From a virus: 26,128 nucleotides of DNA. Positions 5,687 through 25,141 of the stretch are shown in pieces (position 1 is the first letter of the stretch; the number at the start of each line of letters is the position of its first letter). The stretch is from positions 1-26,128 of the IMG/VR virus record IMGVR_UViG_3300047548_001480; one strand, given 5' to 3'. A model generated the notes under the pieces. The model did not search any database. It was not told where the DNA came from and was given only the letters and a program-made list of their open reading frames with translations. The position numbers were made by a program, and so were the translations under genes.

Positions 5687-6406
5687 ATGACCCAACTGAG
5701 CTGGTTGCCTGAAAAGATTGCCCGAGTTGAGCCAAACCCCGTGCAATCGGCCGACAGTCCCGGGATTGGCGTGGCCAGGAGCCATCAGCGCTACGTCCTG
5801 AAGGTGGCGTATCCCGGCCATCCGTATCTGCCAGCATCCGAATGGGCCAGCCACGCGCTGGCGTTTGCGCTGGGACTGCCGGTGCCGCACTGGTGCTTGT
5901 GCGAGCTGCCGGATGGCCGGCACTGCTTCGGATCGCGCATTGAAGGCGCGGTGCTCGGCACCCAAGTGTTGCCCGTAGACTTGTCCGCCTTCGCCAACCC
6001 GGAGGTCATGGGCGGCGCCTTCGTTCTGGACTTGCTGCTGGGCAATGATGACCGCCACCCCGGGAACTGGCTGGTGACCGGCACGGGAGGCGCCGTTCTG
6101 CTACGGCCGATCGACTTCTCACGCGCCCTGCTCTGGCGCTGGCCGCCCAACGCAGTGCCGCCCTGGTCGGCCGACAGCAACAGCACCCGTTACTACACTC
6201 TGGCCTGGACTGCCGGGCAATGCCAACCCAGCGACGGGCGCGCCATGTTCCAGCAGATTCACACCCTGGAAAAATCAGTCTGGGCTAATATCGTGGAGTC
6301 GGTTCCGCCTGACTGGCTGGCGGAACCCTTGAGGAGGGAGCTGATCAACTGGTGGTGGTCACCCATCTGGTGGACCCGCATGAAATGGATCGAGAGTCAA
6401 CTATGA
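5687..6406 (+). CDS. HipA-like kinase domain protein (HipA_2 type)
   Basis: A 239-residue protein starting three bases after the repressor stop, with AAGGGG upstream. It has a compact kinase core: YVLKV with a probable ATP-binding Lys39, then LGNDDRHPGNW (residues about 118-128) matching the catalytic NxDRHxxN of HipA kinases, and PIDFSRAL with a metal-binding Asp143. It lacks the HipA N-terminal domain and is half the length of classical HipA, as in the HipA_2 family. The next gene (DUF3037) overlaps by ATGA, a pairing seen in bacterial genomes. It is encoded in the repressor transcript and so is expected to be expressed in the lysogen, possibly as a toxin, defence or modifying kinase. Confidence 0.75.
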   Translation: MTQLSWLPEKIARVEPNPVQSADSPGIGVARSHQRYVLKVAYPGHPYLPASEWASHALAFALGLPVPHWCLCELPDGRHCFGSRIEGAVLGTQVLPVDLSAFANPEVMGGAFVLDLLLGNDDRHPGNWLVTGTGGAVLLRPIDFSRALLWRWPPNAVPPWSADSNSTRYYTLAWTAGQCQPSDGRAMFQQIHTLEKSVWANIVESVPPDWLAEPLRRELINWWWSPIWWTRMKWIESQL

Positions 6407-7245
6407 ACAAGGCGCTGCAATACAGTCTGGTGCGTTACCAGCCCCATGTCACGCGGCATGAGGTGGTCAACATCGGCGTGGTGCTGTTCACGCCGCAAGG
6501 CCCGGAGCTTCACCTGGCGTCGCAGTTGAACAAGTTGACGGCGCTGGACCCCAACCTGTCGCTGCAGCAGGTACATGACCAGGTCGAATCGATGCGCGAG
6601 ACCCTGACCCTTTTGCATCGCAGCGGCATGGAGCCCGAACAGGCCACCGCCTTCTTGTCCAAGGGAATGGCCGGGCCGTCCTGCATGCCATGCGGCATGC
6701 TGGATCCAGAAGGTCGCAGCCTGGATGATCTGGCGCAGGAGCTGCTGCAGGAACTGGTGCTGCCGCCCACACGCAAGCGAGTGACGGTCAGCAAGACATC
6801 CAGCAGCCGCCTGCATACCGAACTGCGTCAGCTGTTCCAGAGGGCCGGCATGCTGGGCAAGGAGCCGTCTGACATTGCCCGCCACAAGGTGGTGCCGCAT
6901 TTCCCGATTGATCCGGATGTCGGACTGTTTGCCGAATTCGCCTTGCGCAACGGTCGGCTGCATGTGACCGAGACGGTGGATTTCACAGTCAAGGATGTGG
7001 CGGCCAAGAAGCGAGAAGCGGAATCGAAGACCCTGGTGCTGCTGCAGGCCCTGGAAACCGTGGGCCAGAGCGATCTGCGACGCCATGTGGTGGTCAGCGG
7101 CGCACAAGTGAAAGCGGCGCAAGCCAGCATTGCGCTGCTGAGTCGCCACGCCGACGACGTGTTCGTGCGCGAAAGCCAGGCAGACTGGAGGCGCTACATG
7201 GACCTGATGTCAGAAGCCGCCCAGCACCGGGAGGTTGCGGCGTAA
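6403..7245 (+). CDS. DUF3037-family protein, partner of the HipA-like kinase
   Basis: A 280-residue protein starting MNKALQYSLVRYQPHVTRHE. Its N-terminus (YSLVRYQP...EVVNIGVVLFTPQG) is the hallmark of DUF3037. The middle (about 60-150) is helical, and the C-terminal half has a further alpha/beta segment ending near SQADWRRYMDLMSEAAQ. The ATG at 6403 overlaps the kinase stop (ATGA), so the two are made together. No enzyme motif is visible. Known association of DUF3037 with HipA_2 kinases suggests it regulates, or is a substrate of, the kinase; this is inference. Expression should follow the repressor. Confidence 0.75.
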   Translation: MNKALQYSLVRYQPHVTRHEVVNIGVVLFTPQGPELHLASQLNKLTALDPNLSLQQVHDQVESMRETLTLLHRSGMEPEQATAFLSKGMAGPSCMPCGMLDPEGRSLDDLAQELLQELVLPPTRKRVTVSKTSSSRLHTELRQLFQRAGMLGKEPSDIARHKVVPHFPIDPDVGLFAEFALRNGRLHVTETVDFTVKDVAAKKREAESKTLVLLQALETVGQSDLRRHVVVSGAQVKAAQASIALLSRHADDVFVRESQADWRRYMDLMSEAAQHREVAA

Positions 7246-7882: not shown

Positions 7883-8914
7883 TCAGGCCCTGGGCGCAAT
7901 CGCCCGCAGGTACATGCGCTCGACCTGATGCGTCATGTTGACGGGCACCAGGTCGACGCCCGGCTTGGCGCTGGCGTAGACCCTGAAGATCTCGTCCGCA
8001 AAGGCCTGCCCGATCTCCTCGATCTGGGCAAAGTCGAGCACCACGGTGCGGAAGCGGTCAAAGCGGGCAATGATGCGCTTGGCCTGCGAGCGGGAGACCA
8101 GCAGGTCCTGCCCGTACTGGGCCATGCGCATCGGCACCACCGTCTTCGAGAAGTCGAAGTCCTCCGGCTGGTTGGTGAACTGCTCGTAGACGTCGTTCGT
8201 GGTCCGTGCACTGTCCAGCGCCATCGTCATGAAGACGGTGGTGCCGTTGTCGAAGGTTCCCTCGTCCTCGATCAGGATGTCGGGGCTGCCATCGGAGTCG
8301 TGGTTGAACTTGAGGCCGTTGGCCTGGATCTCGAACGAGTCGAACATCCTGGAGGTGAAGAAGATCCCCTCGCCCGAGTGGTTGCTGGGGTCGGTGGTGA
8401 ACTTGCCCTTGGCCAGCTCCAGCAGGGACTGCCGCGGGTCGGCCAGCCCCATGGCGCGCGTGATCTTGTCGAAGATGCCCACGCCGTCGTCCGACACCAC
8501 CAGCGTCAGGGTGGCTTCGTCCTGCTGCGCCCAGACAAACACGTTGTTGCCGCTGGAATGGTCGATGGCGTTGTTGAGCATCTCGGTGAAGCCGTGCATG
8601 GCGATGCCGCGCACATTCGGCTTCAGGTCCAGGAACTGGGCAAACTTGAGCGACCAGACCTCGTCCTCGCGCAAGCCGTCCAGGCGGAACAGCCCCGACA
8701 CCCGGCGCCGGGCGCCGAGCTCAAACCGGGGGCGGGTCTTCGATCCCGTGCGGCGCAGCCAGCCGTCGGCCTCGAGGCGCCGGATGTAGCCCGCCGCCGT
8801 CGAGCGCGAGACGCCATGCTTGGCGGCCAGATGGCCGGCCAGGTCATCCGGGTGGCTCGCCACATCGGCGGTGATCGTCCTGAGCAGGTCCGTCGGCTTG
8901 ATCTTGGCAGTCAT
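7883..8914 (-). CDS. HTH - GHKL ATPase - DUF4325 (STAS-like) regulator
   Basis: A 343-residue three-part protein. Residues about 5-60 are a winged helix (LAAKHGVSRSTAAGYIRRLEADGWL). About 85-225 is a GHKL/histidine-kinase-type ATPase: N box EMLNNAIDHSSG (E111, N115), G1 box DDGVGI (142-147) and an SGEGIF lid. About 260-340 is DUF4325, a STAS-like domain, with VVLDFAQIEEIGQAFADEIFRV. No phospho-acceptor His domain or receiver is present, so the ATPase probably acts as a nucleotide-controlled switch of the attached HTH, as in anti-sigma-like modules. A 13-bp palindrome in its upstream region suggests autoregulation. It is divergent from the early-region operators. Confidence 0.8.
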   Translation of the reverse strand: MTAKIKPTDLLRTITADVASHPDDLAGHLAAKHGVSRSTAAGYIRRLEADGWLRRTGSKTRPRFELGARRRVSGLFRLDGLREDEVWSLKFAQFLDLKPNVRGIAMHGFTEMLNNAIDHSSGNNVFVWAQQDEATLTLVVSDDGVGIFDKITRAMGLADPRQSLLELAKGKFTTDPSNHSGEGIFFTSRMFDSFEIQANGLKFNHDSDGSPDILIEDEGTFDNGTTVFMTMALDSARTTNDVYEQFTNQPEDFDFSKTVVPMRMAQYGQDLLVSRSQAKRIIARFDRFRTVVLDFAQIEEIGQAFADEIFRVYASAKPGVDLVPVNMTHQVERMYLRAIAPRA

Positions 8915-9276: not shown

Positions 9277-9599
9277 AGGCGCCGGATTCGTCCGAGCAGC
9301 ACCGCAAGCCAGGTGCCCGGACCGCCCGCCAGGATCGTTCACAACCCAGCGGATACCCCAGGCGTCACTTAGTAGAAAACGCCCTGCACCATCGGCCCCT
9401 GCAGAACAGGAAGCGGGTCAAGCCTGGTCCTCCCTGCACCCAGCTCGCCACGGTGGCGCGCGCAGAAGTCACAGGGCCAGTCTGCCGGGATTCGTCCTGG
9501 CGGCGCCTACCTGTCGTGGCGCGGTAACGACGGGCACAGGCTTGGCAGGTCGCACCGGGTAGGCGCTGATGGGCGCCGAAGGGCTGAAACCGCCAGGCC
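9277..9599 (+). other. non-coding stretch, probably a structured transcript
   Basis: No convincing protein is found on either strand; the open frames here are Arg/Pro/Gly-rich artefacts. Visible structure includes GCGCCTACC (9503-9511) with its complement GGTAGGCGC (9558-9566), an alternative ACCTG/CAGGT pairing inside it, and GGCGT...ACGCC around 9361-9383. With an operator-controlled promoter at its start and a strong hairpin at its end, it could be a discrete phage RNA of about 440 bases. Confidence 0.4.
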
Positions 9600-9641
9600 G
9601 AAAACCCGAGCGTCCTGGGCAGCTAGGGCGCTCGGGTTTTC
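9600..9641. terminator. strong bidirectional terminator hairpin
   Basis: GAAAACCCGAGCG (9600-9612) pairs perfectly with CGCTCGGGTTTTC (9629-9641), a 13-bp stem with a 16-base loop. A-run and T-run at the two outer ends let it work in both directions. It would end the RNA begun near 9190 and the leftward gene at 9696-10169. Confidence 0.7.
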
Positions 9642-9695
9642 AATCAGGAGGTTTGCATGCGATGGTTTTACGCCTTGCGGCGAAAGATTCGGGCG

Positions 9696-18522: not shown

Positions 18523-20130
18523 GTGACAGGTCGGGTCTATTCCTACATGCGGTTCAGCGATCCGCGCCAGGCCAGCGGGCACAGCAGCGAGCGGCAGATG
18601 ACCTATGCGCGGCGCTGGGCGCAGGAGCACGGACTGGCGCTAGACGAGTCGCTGACGCTGCGCGACGAGGGCTTGTCAGCCTACCATCAGCACCACATCA
18701 AGTCGGGCGCGCTGGGCGTCTTTCTGGCGGCGGTCGAGCAGGGCAAGATCGCGCCAGGGTCGGTCCTGGTCGTCGAGGGCCTGGACCGGCTGTCGCGCGC
18801 CGAGCCGATCCAGGCGCAGGCCCAGCTCGCGCAGATCATCAATGCCGGCATCAGCGTCGTGACCGCCAGCGACGGAAAGGTCTACAGCCGCGAGCGCCTA
18901 AAGTCAAACCCGATGGACTTGGTCTACAGCCTGCTGGTGATGATCCGAGCCCATGAGGAATCCGACACAAAGTCTAAGCGCGTGCTGGCCAGCATCCGGC
19001 GCCAGTGCCAGGGCTGGCTGGCCGGCACCTACCGCGGGTTGATCCGCAACGGCAAGGATCCGGTCTGGGTGCGTCGCATGGATGACGCCTGGGAGCTGAT
19101 CCCCGAGCGGGTCGAGGCCGTGCATGAGGGCCTGCGGCTCTACCGGATCGGCTACGGCGCCAAGCGGATCATTGAGTCGCTACAGGAGAAGGGCTTGTCG
19201 CTGACCGGGCGCGGCCCGCAGGCGCTGCAGATCTACCGGCTGATCCGGCAGCGCGCGCTGCTGGGGGAGAAGGAGATCGAGGTCGATGGCGAATCGTTCA
19301 GGCTGCCCGGCTACTACCCTGCCCTGCTGACGCCCGCCGAGTGGGAAGACCTGCAGGTGTTGGCCAGCGGGCGCGGGCGGCGCAAGGCGTCAGGCCCGGT
19401 GCCGCACATCCTGACCGGCATGGGAATCACGGTCTGCGGCTACTGCGGCCGGGCCATGGTGGGCCAGAACATCGGCACCCGGCGCCGCGACGAGGCTGGA
19501 CGCATCCACGACGGCAACCGGCGCCTGCACTGCACCAGTTACGCGCACGGCGGCTGCACGGTGTCGGGCTCGACATCGGTGGCGCCTTTCGAGCGCGCGC
19601 TGCTGCACTACTGCAGCGACCTGGTCAACCTGCAGGCGCTCTATGGCCAGGACCGAGGCGCCGCACCACGCGCCATGCTGGCCAAAGCCCGTCAGCAGCT
19701 GCAGGAGGTCGAGGCCAAGCTGCGGCGCCTGACCGACGCCATGCTGGCAGCCGAGGATGATGGCGTGCCGATGGTATTTGCCCGCAAGGCGCGCGAGCTC
19801 GAGACAGAGCAGCAGCAGCTGATCGAGACCATAGAGGCCGCCGAGCGCGAGCTGGCCGCCACGGTGCGCGCGGATCTGACGGGCGTCGACCAGAAGTGGC
19901 GCGAGCTGGCCGAGCTCGTCGAGGCGCAGGACGTCGAGGCACGCCTGCAGGCCCGCCAGCTGGTGGCCGACACCTTCGAGCGCATCGTGATCTATCACAG
20001 AGGCATCCGGCCACCAGCCGATGATCACAAGGGGCCGATGGACATGATGCTGGTGGCCAAGGGCGGCAACGGCCGCGTCTTGCGCCTGAGCCGTGCGGGC
20101 GACCTGGTCGATGCCGAGGATGTGGAGTGA
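18523..20130 (+). CDS. large serine recombinase (phage integrase)
   Basis: A 535-residue protein starting at GTG 18523 with GGGGTGA just upstream. The N-terminal resolvase domain (about 5-150) has YMRFSDPRQ with catalytic Ser12 and EGLDRLSRAEP with its conserved Arg. A recombinase domain follows (about 170-290), then a zinc ribbon (CGYCGRAM ... HCTSYAHGGC, about 305-350) and a long coiled coil (about 385-450, AKARQQLQEVEAKLRRLTDAML, LETEQQQLIETIEAAERELAA). This is the order of large serine integrases such as phiC31 and Bxb1. It would integrate and, with a directionality factor, excise the phage. Phage genes flank it on both sides. Confidence 0.9.
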   Translation: MTGRVYSYMRFSDPRQASGHSSERQMTYARRWAQEHGLALDESLTLRDEGLSAYHQHHIKSGALGVFLAAVEQGKIAPGSVLVVEGLDRLSRAEPIQAQAQLAQIINAGISVVTASDGKVYSRERLKSNPMDLVYSLLVMIRAHEESDTKSKRVLASIRRQCQGWLAGTYRGLIRNGKDPVWVRRMDDAWELIPERVEAVHEGLRLYRIGYGAKRIIESLQEKGLSLTGRGPQALQIYRLIRQRALLGEKEIEVDGESFRLPGYYPALLTPAEWEDLQVLASGRGRRKASGPVPHILTGMGITVCGYCGRAMVGQNIGTRRRDEAGRIHDGNRRLHCTSYAHGGCTVSGSTSVAPFERALLHYCSDLVNLQALYGQDRGAAPRAMLAKARQQLQEVEAKLRRLTDAMLAAEDDGVPMVFARKARELETEQQQLIETIEAAERELAATVRADLTGVDQKWRELAELVEAQDVEARLQARQLVADTFERIVIYHRGIRPPADDHKGPMDMMLVAKGGNGRVLRLSRAGDLVDAEDVE

Positions 20131-21581: not shown

Positions 21582-22007
21582 TCAGAGCCCCAGCTTGGCC
21601 TTTTCGGCACGACCCCAGGCGCGGCAGTCCTCGACGTAGTCGTTCCAGGCGCCGGTCTCGCTACTGGGCGCCAGGCGCAGCAGCTTGATCTCGTCGTCGA
21701 TCGAGTAACGGGCGCGGATCTGCTCCACGACTTGGCGATCGATCAATCGCACCTGCGGGCTGGCGGAGCGGATGGCGTCGCGCAGATCATTCGGCAGCGG
21801 ATCCGGCAGGGTCTCGATGGAGGCCTGGATTTCCTCGTGCTGATCCTCAGGCAGATCATGACCATCGTCGATCACGACCACGGTGCGGCCATCCGCCAGG
21901 CTGGCCAGCTCCTGGCCGGCGCGCTGGCCGGCAGAAGCCTCAGGCAGCCGCAGCTCGCGTGTATGGATGGTGTCGATATGCTTGCGGTAGGCGATCAAAG
22001 ACGGCAT
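21582..22007 (-). CDS. 141-residue hypothetical protein overlapping the RT gene end
   Basis: Starts MPSLIAYRKHIDTIHTRELR with AAAGGA nine bases before ATG 22007, inside the last 68 bases of the reverse transcriptase gene in another frame. The C-terminal part (VRLIDRQVVEQIRARYSIDDEIKLLRL and a WNDYVEDCRAWGRAEKAKLGL end) is like proteins encoded behind tail-fibre genes, some of which assist tail assembly. No enzymatic motif. Gene order (adhesin, DGR, this gene, holin) puts it at the tail/lysis boundary. Confidence 0.65.
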   Translation of the reverse strand: MPSLIAYRKHIDTIHTRELRLPEASAGQRAGQELASLADGRTVVVIDDGHDLPEDQHEEIQASIETLPDPLPNDLRDAIRSASPQVRLIDRQVVEQIRARYSIDDEIKLLRLAPSSETGAWNDYVEDCRAWGRAEKAKLGL

Positions 22008-22959
22008 GGTGATGTCCTTTCAGGTAGGTCAGAAGAGGGTTGAGTGAGCAGGTGCGCCGAGCGCAGCCCAGGCGCGACACCAGTGCATCGAGGCGGCCGT
22101 GACGGGCATCGGAGCGGATGGCGGAAATCAGCGATGGCCGAACGAAGCGTCCGCGCGACCAGGTCCGGTAGCCAACGAAGTTGACGCCGCGCTGGATGGG
22201 TTGCAGGCTGTAGTGGCTGATCTCCAGGCCCAGCAGCACCAGGTGCTGCGTGATGCGCTCCAGCCACAGCAGGCCGGTCTGGCGATCGGGCGCGATCATG
22301 ATGCTGTCGTCCATGTAGCGCGCGTAGTGGGCCACCTTGAGCTCGCGCTTGCAGAAGTGGTCCAGGGAATTGAGGTAGACGTTGGCAAAGGTCTGACTCA
22401 GCAGGTTGCCGATCGGAACGCCGCGCGCCTCTGGGCGCTGGGCAAACAGCATCATCAGGCCAATCGTGCGCTCGCACTTGATCACGCGGCGCAGCAGCGC
22501 CTCCAGCACGGACCGATCGATGCTGTAGAAGAACTTTCGCACATCCACATGCAGCACCCAGGCGGTACGCGGTGCGCGACGCATGATGCGCTGCATCCAG
22601 TCGGCGGCCTTGTGCGTGCCCTTCCCGATGCGGCAGGCAAAGCTGGTGTCGACGTAGCGGCGCTCCAGCAGGGGCGCCACGACGGCGTAGATGGCGTGCT
22701 GCACGACGAGGTCGCGAAACGCCGGGGCCTCGATCAGGCGAGCCTTCTTGCGCTCGTTGACGACGAAGCGGTTGCAGGGGTGTGGACGGTAGCGGCCCGA
22801 CTGCAGCTCATCGAGCAGGCGGCCGATCTGTCCGCCCAGGTTGCGCGCGAATTGGAACGTCGAGCGGTGGGAGCGCTTGTTGCGCGAGGCCTGGGCAAAG
22901 GCGGCCAGCAGCGCGCCCTCGCTGACGATCTGGTCGAACAGGCGGCCGGCGCGCCTCAT
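21940..22959 (-). CDS. DGR reverse transcriptase
   Basis: A 339-residue protein starting MRRAGRLFDQIVSEGALLAA at ATG 22959, with AGGGGG upstream; a further upstream start lacks this. Conserved motifs: a catalytic Asp in HVDVRKFFYSID (about 139), IGNLLSQ (183-189, the DGR-specific IGxxxSQ form rather than the QG of other RTs), YARYMDDS (YMDD about 215-218) and a C-terminal thumb-like region with FVGYRTW. Short DGR RTs of 330-390 residues lack an RNase H or maturase domain, as here. It makes cDNA from the template-repeat RNA with errors at adenines and, together with Avd, transfers it into the variable repeat. Confidence 0.93.
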   Translation of the reverse strand: MRRAGRLFDQIVSEGALLAAFAQASRNKRSHRSTFQFARNLGGQIGRLLDELQSGRYRPHPCNRFVVNERKKARLIEAPAFRDLVVQHAIYAVVAPLLERRYVDTSFACRIGKGTHKAADWMQRIMRRAPRTAWVLHVDVRKFFYSIDRSVLEALLRRVIKCERTIGLMMLFAQRPEARGVPIGNLLSQTFANVYLNSLDHFCKRELKVAHYARYMDDSIMIAPDRQTGLLWLERITQHLVLLGLEISHYSLQPIQRGVNFVGYRTWSRGRFVRPSLISAIRSDARHGRLDALVSRLGCARRTCSLNPLLTYLKGHHHAVFDRLPQAYRHHPYTRAAAA

Positions 22960-23243
22960 GCGTCCCCCTGTGGCAATTGCGCTGCTGCGCCAGTTTTCGC
23001 TCGGACGGCTGCAAGGCCGACGCCGGCTACCAAAGGGCGCAGCTGCAAAACATTTCGGCACCAGCCGCGACGGTGGCTCCCTCTTTGCCGGACGGCCGTT
23101 GCCGCATGGGGCGTGGCAGGCAAAGAGTCGGCGCGGAACCCCACGTTGTTGTTCGAGTTGCCGCGTACGTTGTTCAGATTCAGCGCCCAGACCCCGGCAT
23201 TGCTGCCGTTGTTCCAGTTGCCGCCCGAGATCACACAGAGCAT
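22956..23243 (-). other. open frame through the template repeat, coupled to avd and RT
   Basis: A 95-codon frame begins at ATG 23243, one base after the avd stop (TGA-C-ATG), has GGGAG six bases upstream, reads through the template repeat in the same frame as the variable repeat, and ends with TGA overlapping the RT start (ATGA). The first 40 codons are the N-rich template; the rest is Arg/Ala-rich. It may be translated as a coupling ORF; the template function does not need it. Confidence 0.3.
23125..23241 (-). repeat. DGR template repeat (TR)
   Basis: A 117-bp sequence matching the variable repeat with 103 identities. All 14 differences are at T of the plus strand, that is, at A of the coding-strand TR; of 26 adenines, 14 differ. 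It contains many AAC codons that would read Asn in the frame of the target, at positions where the target has Ser, Tyr, Gly, Asp, His and Ala. It lies between avd (three bases away) and RT (165-base spacer). Confidence 0.95.
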
Positions 23244-23244
23244 G

Positions 23245-23706
23245 TCAAGCTCCCGCCGCACCGACAGCCGCAGGGCTGACGGATTCAGTTGCCGCACCTG
23301 CCTGGGCCGGTGCGCGCAGTTCGCTGTTGAGCCAGCCGCCGATCATGCGGCCGAGCTCGTCGACCATCTTGCTGATGGTCAGGAATCGGTGATCGCCGGG
23401 TGCGGTCGCGTCTCGCCGGCCACCACTGCAATCAAACAAGCCCAGCTCATACGCCAGGTTCAGCAGCATGCGCAGCTGCTCGTGGCGGATGTCGAGCTGG
23501 GTCAGCGTGGTCTTCTTGTGATAGCGCTTTTGCGCCTCGGTCACCAGGTTGTAGACGTCGACGAACGCCACCCGGATCTGCTGGGTCAGCGCGTAGCGGT
23601 GGCAGTTGGGGAAATGCGCCAGATAGCCCTCCAGTTGCACGGCAAACAGCACCAGCTTGCGGTGCAGGCTGGCCTCGGCATGGATGTGCTGGCTGGTGTG
23701 GCTCAT
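23245..23706 (-). CDS. avd: Avd-type accessory variability protein of the DGR
   Basis: A 153-residue protein starting MSHTSQHIHAEASLHRKLVL with AGGGA seven bases upstream. Helical four-bundle pattern: LHRKLVLFAVQLEGYLAHF, ALTQQIRVAFVDVYNLVTEAQ, LTQLDIRHEQLRMLLNLAYE and FLTISKMVDELGRMIGGWLN, with the basic residues typical of Avd, which forms a pentamer and binds RT and nucleic acid. The C-terminal 25 residues are Ala/Pro-rich. Position between target and TR is that of BPP-1 avd. It is required for mutagenic retrohoming in characterised DGRs. Confidence 0.85.
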   Translation of the reverse strand: MSHTSQHIHAEASLHRKLVLFAVQLEGYLAHFPNCHRYALTQQIRVAFVDVYNLVTEAQKRYHKKTTLTQLDIRHEQLRMLLNLAYELGLFDCSGGRRDATAPGDHRFLTISKMVDELGRMIGGWLNSELRAPAQAGAATESVSPAAVGAAGA

Positions 23707-23737
23707 GACTCAGTCCCTATCGCTGCCGCTCAGGGCC

Positions 23738-25141
23738 TCAAAGATACGAGGCGGCGCGGAACCCCACGGCGTGGTCCGAGTCGCCGCGGACGTCGTTCAG
23801 ATACAGCGCCCAGACCCCGGCACCGCTGCCGTAGCTCCAGCTGCCGCCCGAGATCACACAGAGCTCATTGGGCCGGTAGTCCCACAGGCCGTCGTTGCCG
23901 AAAAGGTTGGATCCGCCCGTGCCGCCGACCAGCGGAATGCCGGCGCCCGCTGCCGCCCAGGCGTTTCCGCTGACGGCCTGGCTCAGCACCTGAGAGGCGC
24001 TGCCGATGGTCTTGTAGGAGTTGCTGGCCGTCATCGACTCGTAGGTCGCGCCCAGGCTGTCGTACAGGGCCGCGATGCCAGTGGCGCCCCAGCCATCGGT
24101 CGCCAGCGTGTTGCCACCCGTAATGGCGGCAGCGTCGGCGGCCGTCTTGAGCAGGTAGTAGTTGCTGCCGTCACTGGTCAGGCCGGTGTTGATCTCCCAC
24201 AGCAGGCCGTTGAGGTCGGCCACGCCGCAGGCCTGTCCGTTGTGGGTCGTGCGCGAGAACAGGCTGGCACTGCCCGTCTTGCCGCACGGATAGGTGCCGT
24301 TGCCGTCCGACGTGTAGGCAATGGCCGCGTCGTTGGCATCGCCCAGCGCGTTGTTGTTGCAGCCCTTGGGGAAGTTGGTCGAGCCGCTGCTGTACCAGGC
24401 ACAGAATGCCGCACTGGTCGAGGCCTGGCCATGCGCGACCGACAGCAGGGCCAGGGCTGCGAAGATGAAGCGGGTATTGCAGAAGAAGCGGCTGCCGCGC
24501 GTCTTGGCGGCCGCCAGGGCGCCGCCGTAGTTGTTGGCTGGCGCGCCGTTGAGTGCCGAGAAGACTGCCGTTGAGAGCGAGCCGCGCTGCGCGCTCGAAA
24601 GCGGGACGCCGTTCTTGATCGAGCTGGCCACGCCAGCGTTGTTGCTGGCCAGGTACTTGTCGACGAAGAATCCCTGGCGGATCTGGCCGGCGTTGTAGAA
24701 GGCGCGGTGCAACGCGTAGCCGGCGCCGTTGGCATCCGACACGGTGGCAAAGGCGCCGAACGGCTTGACATCGACCACGTTGACCGCCAGGCCGTTGGAC
24801 CCGGTGCCGACCTTGTAGAAGAAGGCCGGCACGTAGACCATTACCGAGCCGTCGGCATAGGTGTAGTTGCCGTAGTTCTCGCTGGTCGGGTCCTCGGTGC
24901 CCGACATGCGGAAGAAGCCGCTGGGCAGGCTGGGGGCGATGCCCACGCCAAAACCCTGAGCGCCCGGCGCGCCGATGCTCAGCGCATCGACGCCATAGCG
25001 CGCCGCGCGGATCGAGGCGCGCTTGGTGGTGCCGCTGGACGACATGGTGGTATCCGACACGTCGACCACCACGATCTGGTCGTCGAGTGAGATCTCGGAG
25101 TCAGCCAGCACGGAAAGTGCCGTGATTTTCTTGTCTGCCAT
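23738..25141 (-). CDS. DGR target: tail receptor-binding protein with variable C-type lectin-fold C-terminus
   Basis: A 467-residue protein starting MADKKITALSVLADSEISLD, with GGAG upstream. The N-terminal part (about 1-60, KKITALSVLADSEISLDDQIVVVDVSDTT...TTKRASI) is a tail-attachment type seen in phage tail proteins. The long middle is beta-rich. The C-terminal about 150 residues carry the formylglycine-generating-enzyme/C-type-lectin pattern (LNGLLWEINTG ... DYRPNELCVISGG ... GVWALYLNDVRG ... AVGFRAA) shared by DGR adhesins such as Mtd. It binds the host receptor at the tail tip; VR changes would alter host range. Confidence 0.9.
   Translation of the reverse strand: MADKKITALSVLADSEISLDDQIVVVDVSDTTMSSSGTTKRASIRAARYGVDALSIGAPGAQGFGVGIAPSLPSGFFRMSGTEDPTSENYGNYTYADGSVMVYVPAFFYKVGTGSNGLAVNVVDVKPFGAFATVSDANGAGYALHRAFYNAGQIRQGFFVDKYLASNNAGVASSIKNGVPLSSAQRGSLSTAVFSALNGAPANNYGGALAAAKTRGSRFFCNTRFIFAALALLSVAHGQASTSAAFCAWYSSGSTNFPKGCNNNALGDANDAAIAYTSDGNGTYPCGKTGSASLFSRTTHNGQACGVADLNGLLWEINTGLTSDGSNYYLLKTAADAAAITGGNTLATDGWGATGIAALYDSLGATYESMTASNSYKTIGSASQVLSQAVSGNAWAAAGAGIPLVGGTGGSNLFGNDGLWDYRPNELCVISGGSWSYGSGAGVWALYLNDVRGDSDHAVGFRAASYL
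23748..23864 (-). repeat. DGR variable repeat (VR) in the adhesin gene
   Basis: The 3' end of the target gene, offset from the TR by exactly 623 bp. The coding strand ends with a G+C-rich unchanged part (GTGGGGTTCCGCGCCG) in the IMH (initiation of mutagenic homing) position. Residues changed relative to the template are surface-type in a C-type lectin fold. The frame ends 12 bases after the repeat (stop 23738), so all diversity is at the C-terminus. Confidence 0.93.

Follow-up and report, generated by a model that had tools for sequence, protein, structure and literature searches.

Introduction

Diversity-generating retroelements (DGRs) of phages are by now a well populated class, more than 30,000 examples of the system type being known according to the parts of the survey by Roux et al. 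(2021; PMC8144416) covered here, in which virus DGR clades 1, 4 and 6 appear as active, phage-borne elements with a tail target and a C-terminal VR. The element of phage BPP-1 (mtd-avd-TR-brt) relies on adenine mutagenesis of a lectin-fold tail protein; its 3′ TR/VR mismatches distinguish IMH* from IMH (PMC3240598), and its spacer folds and recruits RT–Avd (PMC12875486), in a study for which the element was moved into a laboratory E. coli strain. A hairpin with a GRNA loop and 7–10 contiguous base pairs follows VR in BPP-1 and in other phage DGRs (PMC3240598), the stem of BPP-1 itself having 8 contiguous base pairs. Overlap between the RT gene and the next gene has precedents in BPP-1, where brt and bbp4 share 20 nt, and in VP58.5, where the RT overlaps gp21 by 77 nt. 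Among GenBank phages, Pseudomonas phage Bise carries the RT closest to the one described here (43% identity).

The window analysed in this work is the whole of IMG/VR virus record IMGVR_UViG_3300047548_001480, a stretch of 26,128 nucleotides. Its DGR shares with that of BPP-1 the gene order and strand, an Avd protein, adenine mutagenesis, a lectin-fold tail target, an IMH, a spacer RNA and a GRNA-loop hairpin after VR, as well as an IGxxxSQ/YMDD-type RT (38% identity). It differs from BPP-1 in having a target closer to TaqVP than to Mtd, a hairpin stem broken by tandem G·A, and a next gene without a sequence relative among GenBank phage proteins. Bise has similar spacer motifs in its TR–RT region, but has an adenine methylase after its RT in place of the 141-aa partner gene; neither a partner gene nor a hairpin variant of this kind figures in the covered passages of Roux et al. 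(2021).

Results

Organization of the cassette

From 25141 to 21582 on the minus strand, the window carries a target, VR, hairpin, avd, TR, spacer, RT and an overlapping small gene (Table 1). The initial annotation, made from the letters alone, had proposed a complete DGR of the BPP-1 type, with a lectin-fold target containing VR, avd, TR and RT in that order on a single strand. All of its coordinates proved correct, and the claim of completeness is borne out by the agreement of the TR/VR comparison, RT phylogeny, Avd and the lectin-fold model, to which the spacer RNA, the hairpin and the VRs of relatives can be added. The matching gene order and strand, RT motifs, Avd and adenine mutagenesis likewise uphold the assignment to the BPP-1 type, and the element is a standard phage DGR with nothing new as a system. 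A 624-aa plus-strand open reading frame (22099–23973), antisense to the whole cassette, belongs to no family and was taken as a probable artefact of GC-rich codon usage.

Table 1. Features of the DGR locus, in window coordinates.
Feature	Position	Strand	Description
Target, putative tail adhesin with C-terminal C-type-lectin fold	23738..25141	(-)	467 aa
VR, C-terminus of target	23748..23864	(-)	117 nt
Post-VR hairpin (predicted)	23715..23735	(-)	CCCT-GA-GC-GGCA-GC-GA-T-AGGG
Avd accessory protein	23245..23706	(-)	153 aa
TR	23125..23241	(-)	117 nt, 26 adenines
IMH*-like 3′ end of TR	23125..23140	(-)	...GCCGACTC; A at 23128 corresponds to fixed C in VR (23751)
TR–RT spacer, structured RNA	22960..23124	(-)	165 nt; four covarying helices
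DGR RT	21940..22959	(-)	339 aa; PIGNLLSQ, RYMDD
Partner gene	21582..22007	(-)	141 aa; overlaps RT 3′ end by 68 nt (21940-22007)

Template and variable repeats

TR and VR align without gaps at 88% identity and differ at 14 of 117 positions, every one of which is an adenine in TR (eight A>G, four A>C and two A>T; hypergeometric P = 2.1e-11 for 14/14, given the 26 adenines available). The 3′-most mismatch, an A>C change that turns GACT into GCCT, recurs unaltered in some 130 of the 138 related loci (counts here and throughout are of loci and not of independent phages, several being overlapping pieces of a single contig), and it is constant also in contigs whose remaining VR sites differ freely. 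Since this change is fixed across loci, it is read, as in BPP-1, as marking IMH* versus IMH rather than a mutagenesis event, so that 13 differences, not 14, are attributable to mutagenesis; all 13 lie at adenines (P = 9e-11). Distinct IMH* and IMH sequences, one of the criteria by which a DGR is recognized, are thus present at the 3′ ends of TR and VR.

Read in frame, 15 of the 38 TR codons contain adenine, 11 of them being AAC or AAT, each of which can yield 15 residues and no stop. This TR/VR pair is the sole one, a search of the 26,128-base record having revealed neither a second pair nor a remote VR.

Reverse transcriptase and Avd

The short RT with IGNLLSQ and YMDD motifs noted in the initial annotation was confirmed by its matches to Pfam RVT_1 (2.3e-15) and PHROG 1423 (1.1e-91), and its PIGNLLSQ conforms to the (I/L/V)GxxxSQ motif of DGR-clade RTs. 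The best solved relative is 8ub7, entered as 'Reverse transcriptase' (4e-50), which we take to be the BPP-1 DGR RT, and group II intron RTs match at 6e-11 to 3e-16. In a tree of 31 rows, two of them very long and with some of the deep DGR branching uncertain, the window RT lies among phage DGR RTs (BPP-1, YPCBV-1, VP58.5, Bise and members of its own lineage). A separate clade, supported at 100/99, unites four RTs of group II introns with two others that carry PQGG motifs of the group II type. One further row, RT_Dulem, has the DGR motif and falls outside the group II RT clade. The placement outside the DGR clade that would have spoken against the annotation did not occur. A longer RT starting from GTG 23061 was rejected: the homology of relatives begins at ATG 22959, and the extension would overlap the structured spacer.

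The call of an Avd-type protein also stood, being supported by Pfam and PHROGs; matches were obtained to bAvd (2.3e-13), 'Avd protein of DGR' (8.9e-20), PHROG 3206 and, at a score below its strict cut-off, NF033474.

Variation among related loci

A repeat pair is found upstream of the RT in 131 of 137 related loci, and in 124 of these 131 pairs, which were picked regardless of mismatch type, at least 75% of the mismatches fall at an A of the RT-proximal copy; over 136 pairs, partly selected by their adenine share, 95% of mismatches face an adenine. Six contigs (L016, L017, L018, L022, L024 and L027) show no differences across approximately 3 kb of flanks (1.3 kb on each side plus avd and TR), and most of their VR pairs differ at 10–18 of 23 TR-adenine sites and at 0–1 of 90 others, exact copies such as L016/L022 being exceptions. 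L021/L023/L025 and L064/L068/L069 display a like pattern, with up to three non-adenine sites, and L193/L194 are identical over the target flank (0/173) and the avd flank (0/540) and differ at 13 of 24 TR adenines. As these relatives with identical flanks reveal, the DGR lineage is active. Another relative, L088, is a prophage of Halopseudomonas formosensis. The population check put forward in the initial annotation, run on the relatives, found variation limited to TR adenines, and the off-adenine pattern that would have contradicted it did not appear.

Spacer RNA

The motifs AGGGA, AAAT and GTAG of the TR–RT spacer are invariant, and near-invariant across 45 diverse members. Its outermost helix pairs 23036–23041 with 22986–22991, and compensatory changes occur at all 14 pairs of the predicted structure. 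The covariation score of 0.759 compares with 0.199 for shuffles and with a maximum of 0.155 when partners were slid; scoring used the very alignment from which the structure had been predicted, which favours it, but the margin is large. An Rfam search of the DGR region gave no match of note.

A hairpin with tandem G·A

The predicted hairpin after VR consists of a GRNA loop (GGCA), a 2-bp inner stem, a tandem G·A (GA facing GA), a bulged T and a 4-bp outer stem. Compared with the published definition, the GRNA loop is present but the contiguous 7–10 bp stem is absent. Tandem G·A pairs can stack like base pairs, which would bring the stem to about eight steps, close to the BPP-1 optimum.

The pattern GA-NN-GRNA-N′N′-GA occurs once in the whole window. 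Of 138 loci, 89 have it no more than 49 nt from the end of VR, where its density would predict 0.27; 28 further loci have the uninterrupted kind of hairpin. The outer arms covary with a score of 0.367 (shuffled, 0.162; slid, 0.129 or less), the inner pairs covary in a few loci, where GC/GC has become AC/GT or GT/AC, and GA/GA is constant. By these sequence comparisons, the predicted tandem G·A variant is conserved in the lineage, and the invariant G·A, which takes the place of part of the GC stem, may perhaps be recognized by a distinct nuclease, from the host or the DGR.

Target protein

No Pfam domain was found in the target. Its AlphaFold model (pLDDT 86) resembles DGR proteins, in agreement with the lectin-fold target of the initial annotation: the best structural match is Thermus aquaticus TaqVP (5vf4; E 2.6e-15), with five Mtd variants next (E between 2e-3 and 3e-2). 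Identity to TaqVP is 18%, and the first 55 residues are of low confidence and unmatched. The record stops 1 kb beyond the target, cutting off the tail module of the window phage itself. Holin, endolysin and spanin genes come after the target in the window. In L119, a relative, the target is immediately preceded by genes for a tape-measure protein, a member of PHROG 6278 and a tail-fibre-like protein, and followed by one for an endolysin. A tail-protein target, as claimed in the initial annotation, is thereby supported; its role as an adhesin that binds receptors is one that we infer from fold, position and relatives.

The gene overlapping the RT

The initial annotation had singled out the overlap between the RT and the next gene as unusual. 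The overlap is real, but it is not unusual, being conserved in most of the lineage and present also in BPP-1 and VP58.5. The gene, here termed the partner gene, directly follows the RT in 128 of 157 RT loci, with an overlap of commonly 40–70 nt, and of 80 loci found via the partner gene alone 76 have an RT just upstream. The remaining four loci are RT-less and retain the partner beside a lectin-fold adhesin, and three of them show avd and/or RT remnants: L227 has the adhesin, the initial avd codons and then the final RT codons and the partner; L266 has the first 26 avd codons and then the partner; in L219, foreign sequence separates half of avd from the RT 3′ end. The fourth, L258, has the adhesin and the partner with no DGR remnant. 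DGR loci with another target type (L064, L065 and L067–L069; approximately 24–39% identity, in the C-terminal part only) carry a different gene after the RT.

The partner model is of high confidence (pLDDT 96.6), and no PDB match was found for its fold at 0.001; it does match a viral model, A0A516LIE3 (E 3.9e-5). Searches for homologues returned no Pfam family, none among GenBank phages at 0.01 and nothing solid in PHROGs. PHROG 11820, 'tail assembly chaperone', gave a weak match in three of 63 partner members (best E 0.001); no Pfam hit was obtained for the window protein, and homology to a known tail assembly chaperone is not supported.

In several other DGR loci, from Campylobacterota and others (L095, L096, L102, L105, L106, L110 and L186), genes of 120–185 aa occupy the partner position; they have a similar N-terminal pattern, M-x-KY..., and are possibly remote relatives of the partner.

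Other features of the window

A large serine integrase is encoded at 18523–20130 (+), in keeping with the description of the phage as one with a serine recombinase; its DNA is 76.7% identical over 416 nt to the serine recombinase of Burkholderia phage JC1. A search with the first 25 kb of the window identified no close GenBank phage, this stretch of JC1 being the only near match. Among the other genes, that at 7883–8914 (-) encodes an unusual phage cargo, a protein in which a MarR-like helix-turn-helix is fused with a histidine-kinase-type ATPase domain and a STAS-like DUF4325 domain. A gene pair at 5687–7245 (+), directly after a CI-like repressor gene, has a weak kinase-like match (PF00454, under cut-off) and a DUF3037, and resembles mobile two-gene cassettes. 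An intergenic inverted repeat at 9587–9654 has 30-nt arms, 8 nt spacing and 80% complementarity.

Discussion

The locus is best explained as a functional DGR that follows the BPP-1 retrohoming scheme and is accompanied by an adhesin partner, a reading which, taken whole, we hold with a probability of about 0.93. The DGR of the window phage is very probably functional, a judgement based on its intact parts and active relatives because no near-identical record is available. That it only looks intact, its VR having been fixed long ago, would fit the loss of DGRs elsewhere in the lineage, where L219, L227 and L266 retain scars alone, and the population evidence indeed comes from relatives and not from the window phage. 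Such long-standing inactivity is nevertheless improbable: every frame, the spacer RNA motifs, the IMH and the hairpin are intact, all 13 differences outside the IMH* site are at adenines, the other TR/VR positions showing no drift, and the nearest relatives with population data, such as L193/L194, are active. That the RT belongs to a group II intron or retron, with repeats that are incidental, has a negligible probability. The RT fold is common to both and the protein partially matches a group II intron maturase model, but at 109 bits, well short of the cut-off of 300; it has IGNLLSQ/YMDD instead of PQGGxxSP/YADD and no maturase domain, and the separate group II clade in the tree, together with the adenine-only differences between the repeats, rules out this reading.

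The role of the 141-aa gene is a closer question. Its position after the RT in most RT loci, and the RT upstream of it in nearly all loci recovered from the gene alone, are what would be expected of a new DGR accessory factor comparable to Avd. On the other hand, the RT-less loci keep the gene next to the target, three of them with remnants of the lost element, and the DGRs with other targets have a different next gene, which makes an accessory role unlikely. Retention with the adhesin after DGR loss, and its replacement in loci with other kinds of target, tie the gene to the adhesin, and most likely it serves the adhesin and not the retroelement; judging by gene neighbourhood only, a chaperone or structural adaptor is a somewhat favoured identity. 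No description of the partner gene or of the G·A hairpin variant was found in the literature searched, the DGR survey of Wu et al. (2018) lying outside that search; both appear to be undescribed, and the partner appears to constitute a new family, with an apparently new fold.

To the anatomy, homologies, conserved RNA and DNA structures and adenine-only variation of relatives observed here, BPP-1 biology adds by analogy a scheme of priming, retrohoming and receptor switching. Transcription of the minus strand would cover the target–avd–TR–RT segment, and the conserved fold of the post-TR spacer would recruit RT and Avd. TR would then be copied into cDNA, with random bases placed opposite adenines, and the cDNA would substitute for VR, with guidance from the IMH, the GC-rich 3′ end common to both repeats, and from the hairpin directly after VR. 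As a result, as many as 13 residues, the IMH* codon not counted, could vary on the C-terminal lectin fold of the tail adhesin, most of them encoded by AAY codons, which are incapable of turning into stops; the receptors open to the phage would change accordingly. The next gene, starting inside the RT frame, would act as an adhesin partner rather than as a retroelement factor.

Taken jointly, these observations outline a large lineage of mainly proteobacterial phages in which the DGR may be a removable cassette within a two-gene adhesin–partner unit, with a G·A hairpin as its recognition site, a proposal to which we give even odds. The hairpin offers a naturally occurring form of the DNA structure that marks DGR targets, one backed by covariation and useful as a handle on the factor that recognizes or cuts it. 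The deletion scars are natural instances in which the cassette was lost while adhesin and partner persisted. If the proposal is true, the partner must work with every VR variant, as a general assembly or attachment factor would, and a gene that outlives the DGR could reveal how phages assemble a tail tip protein with an ever-changing end.
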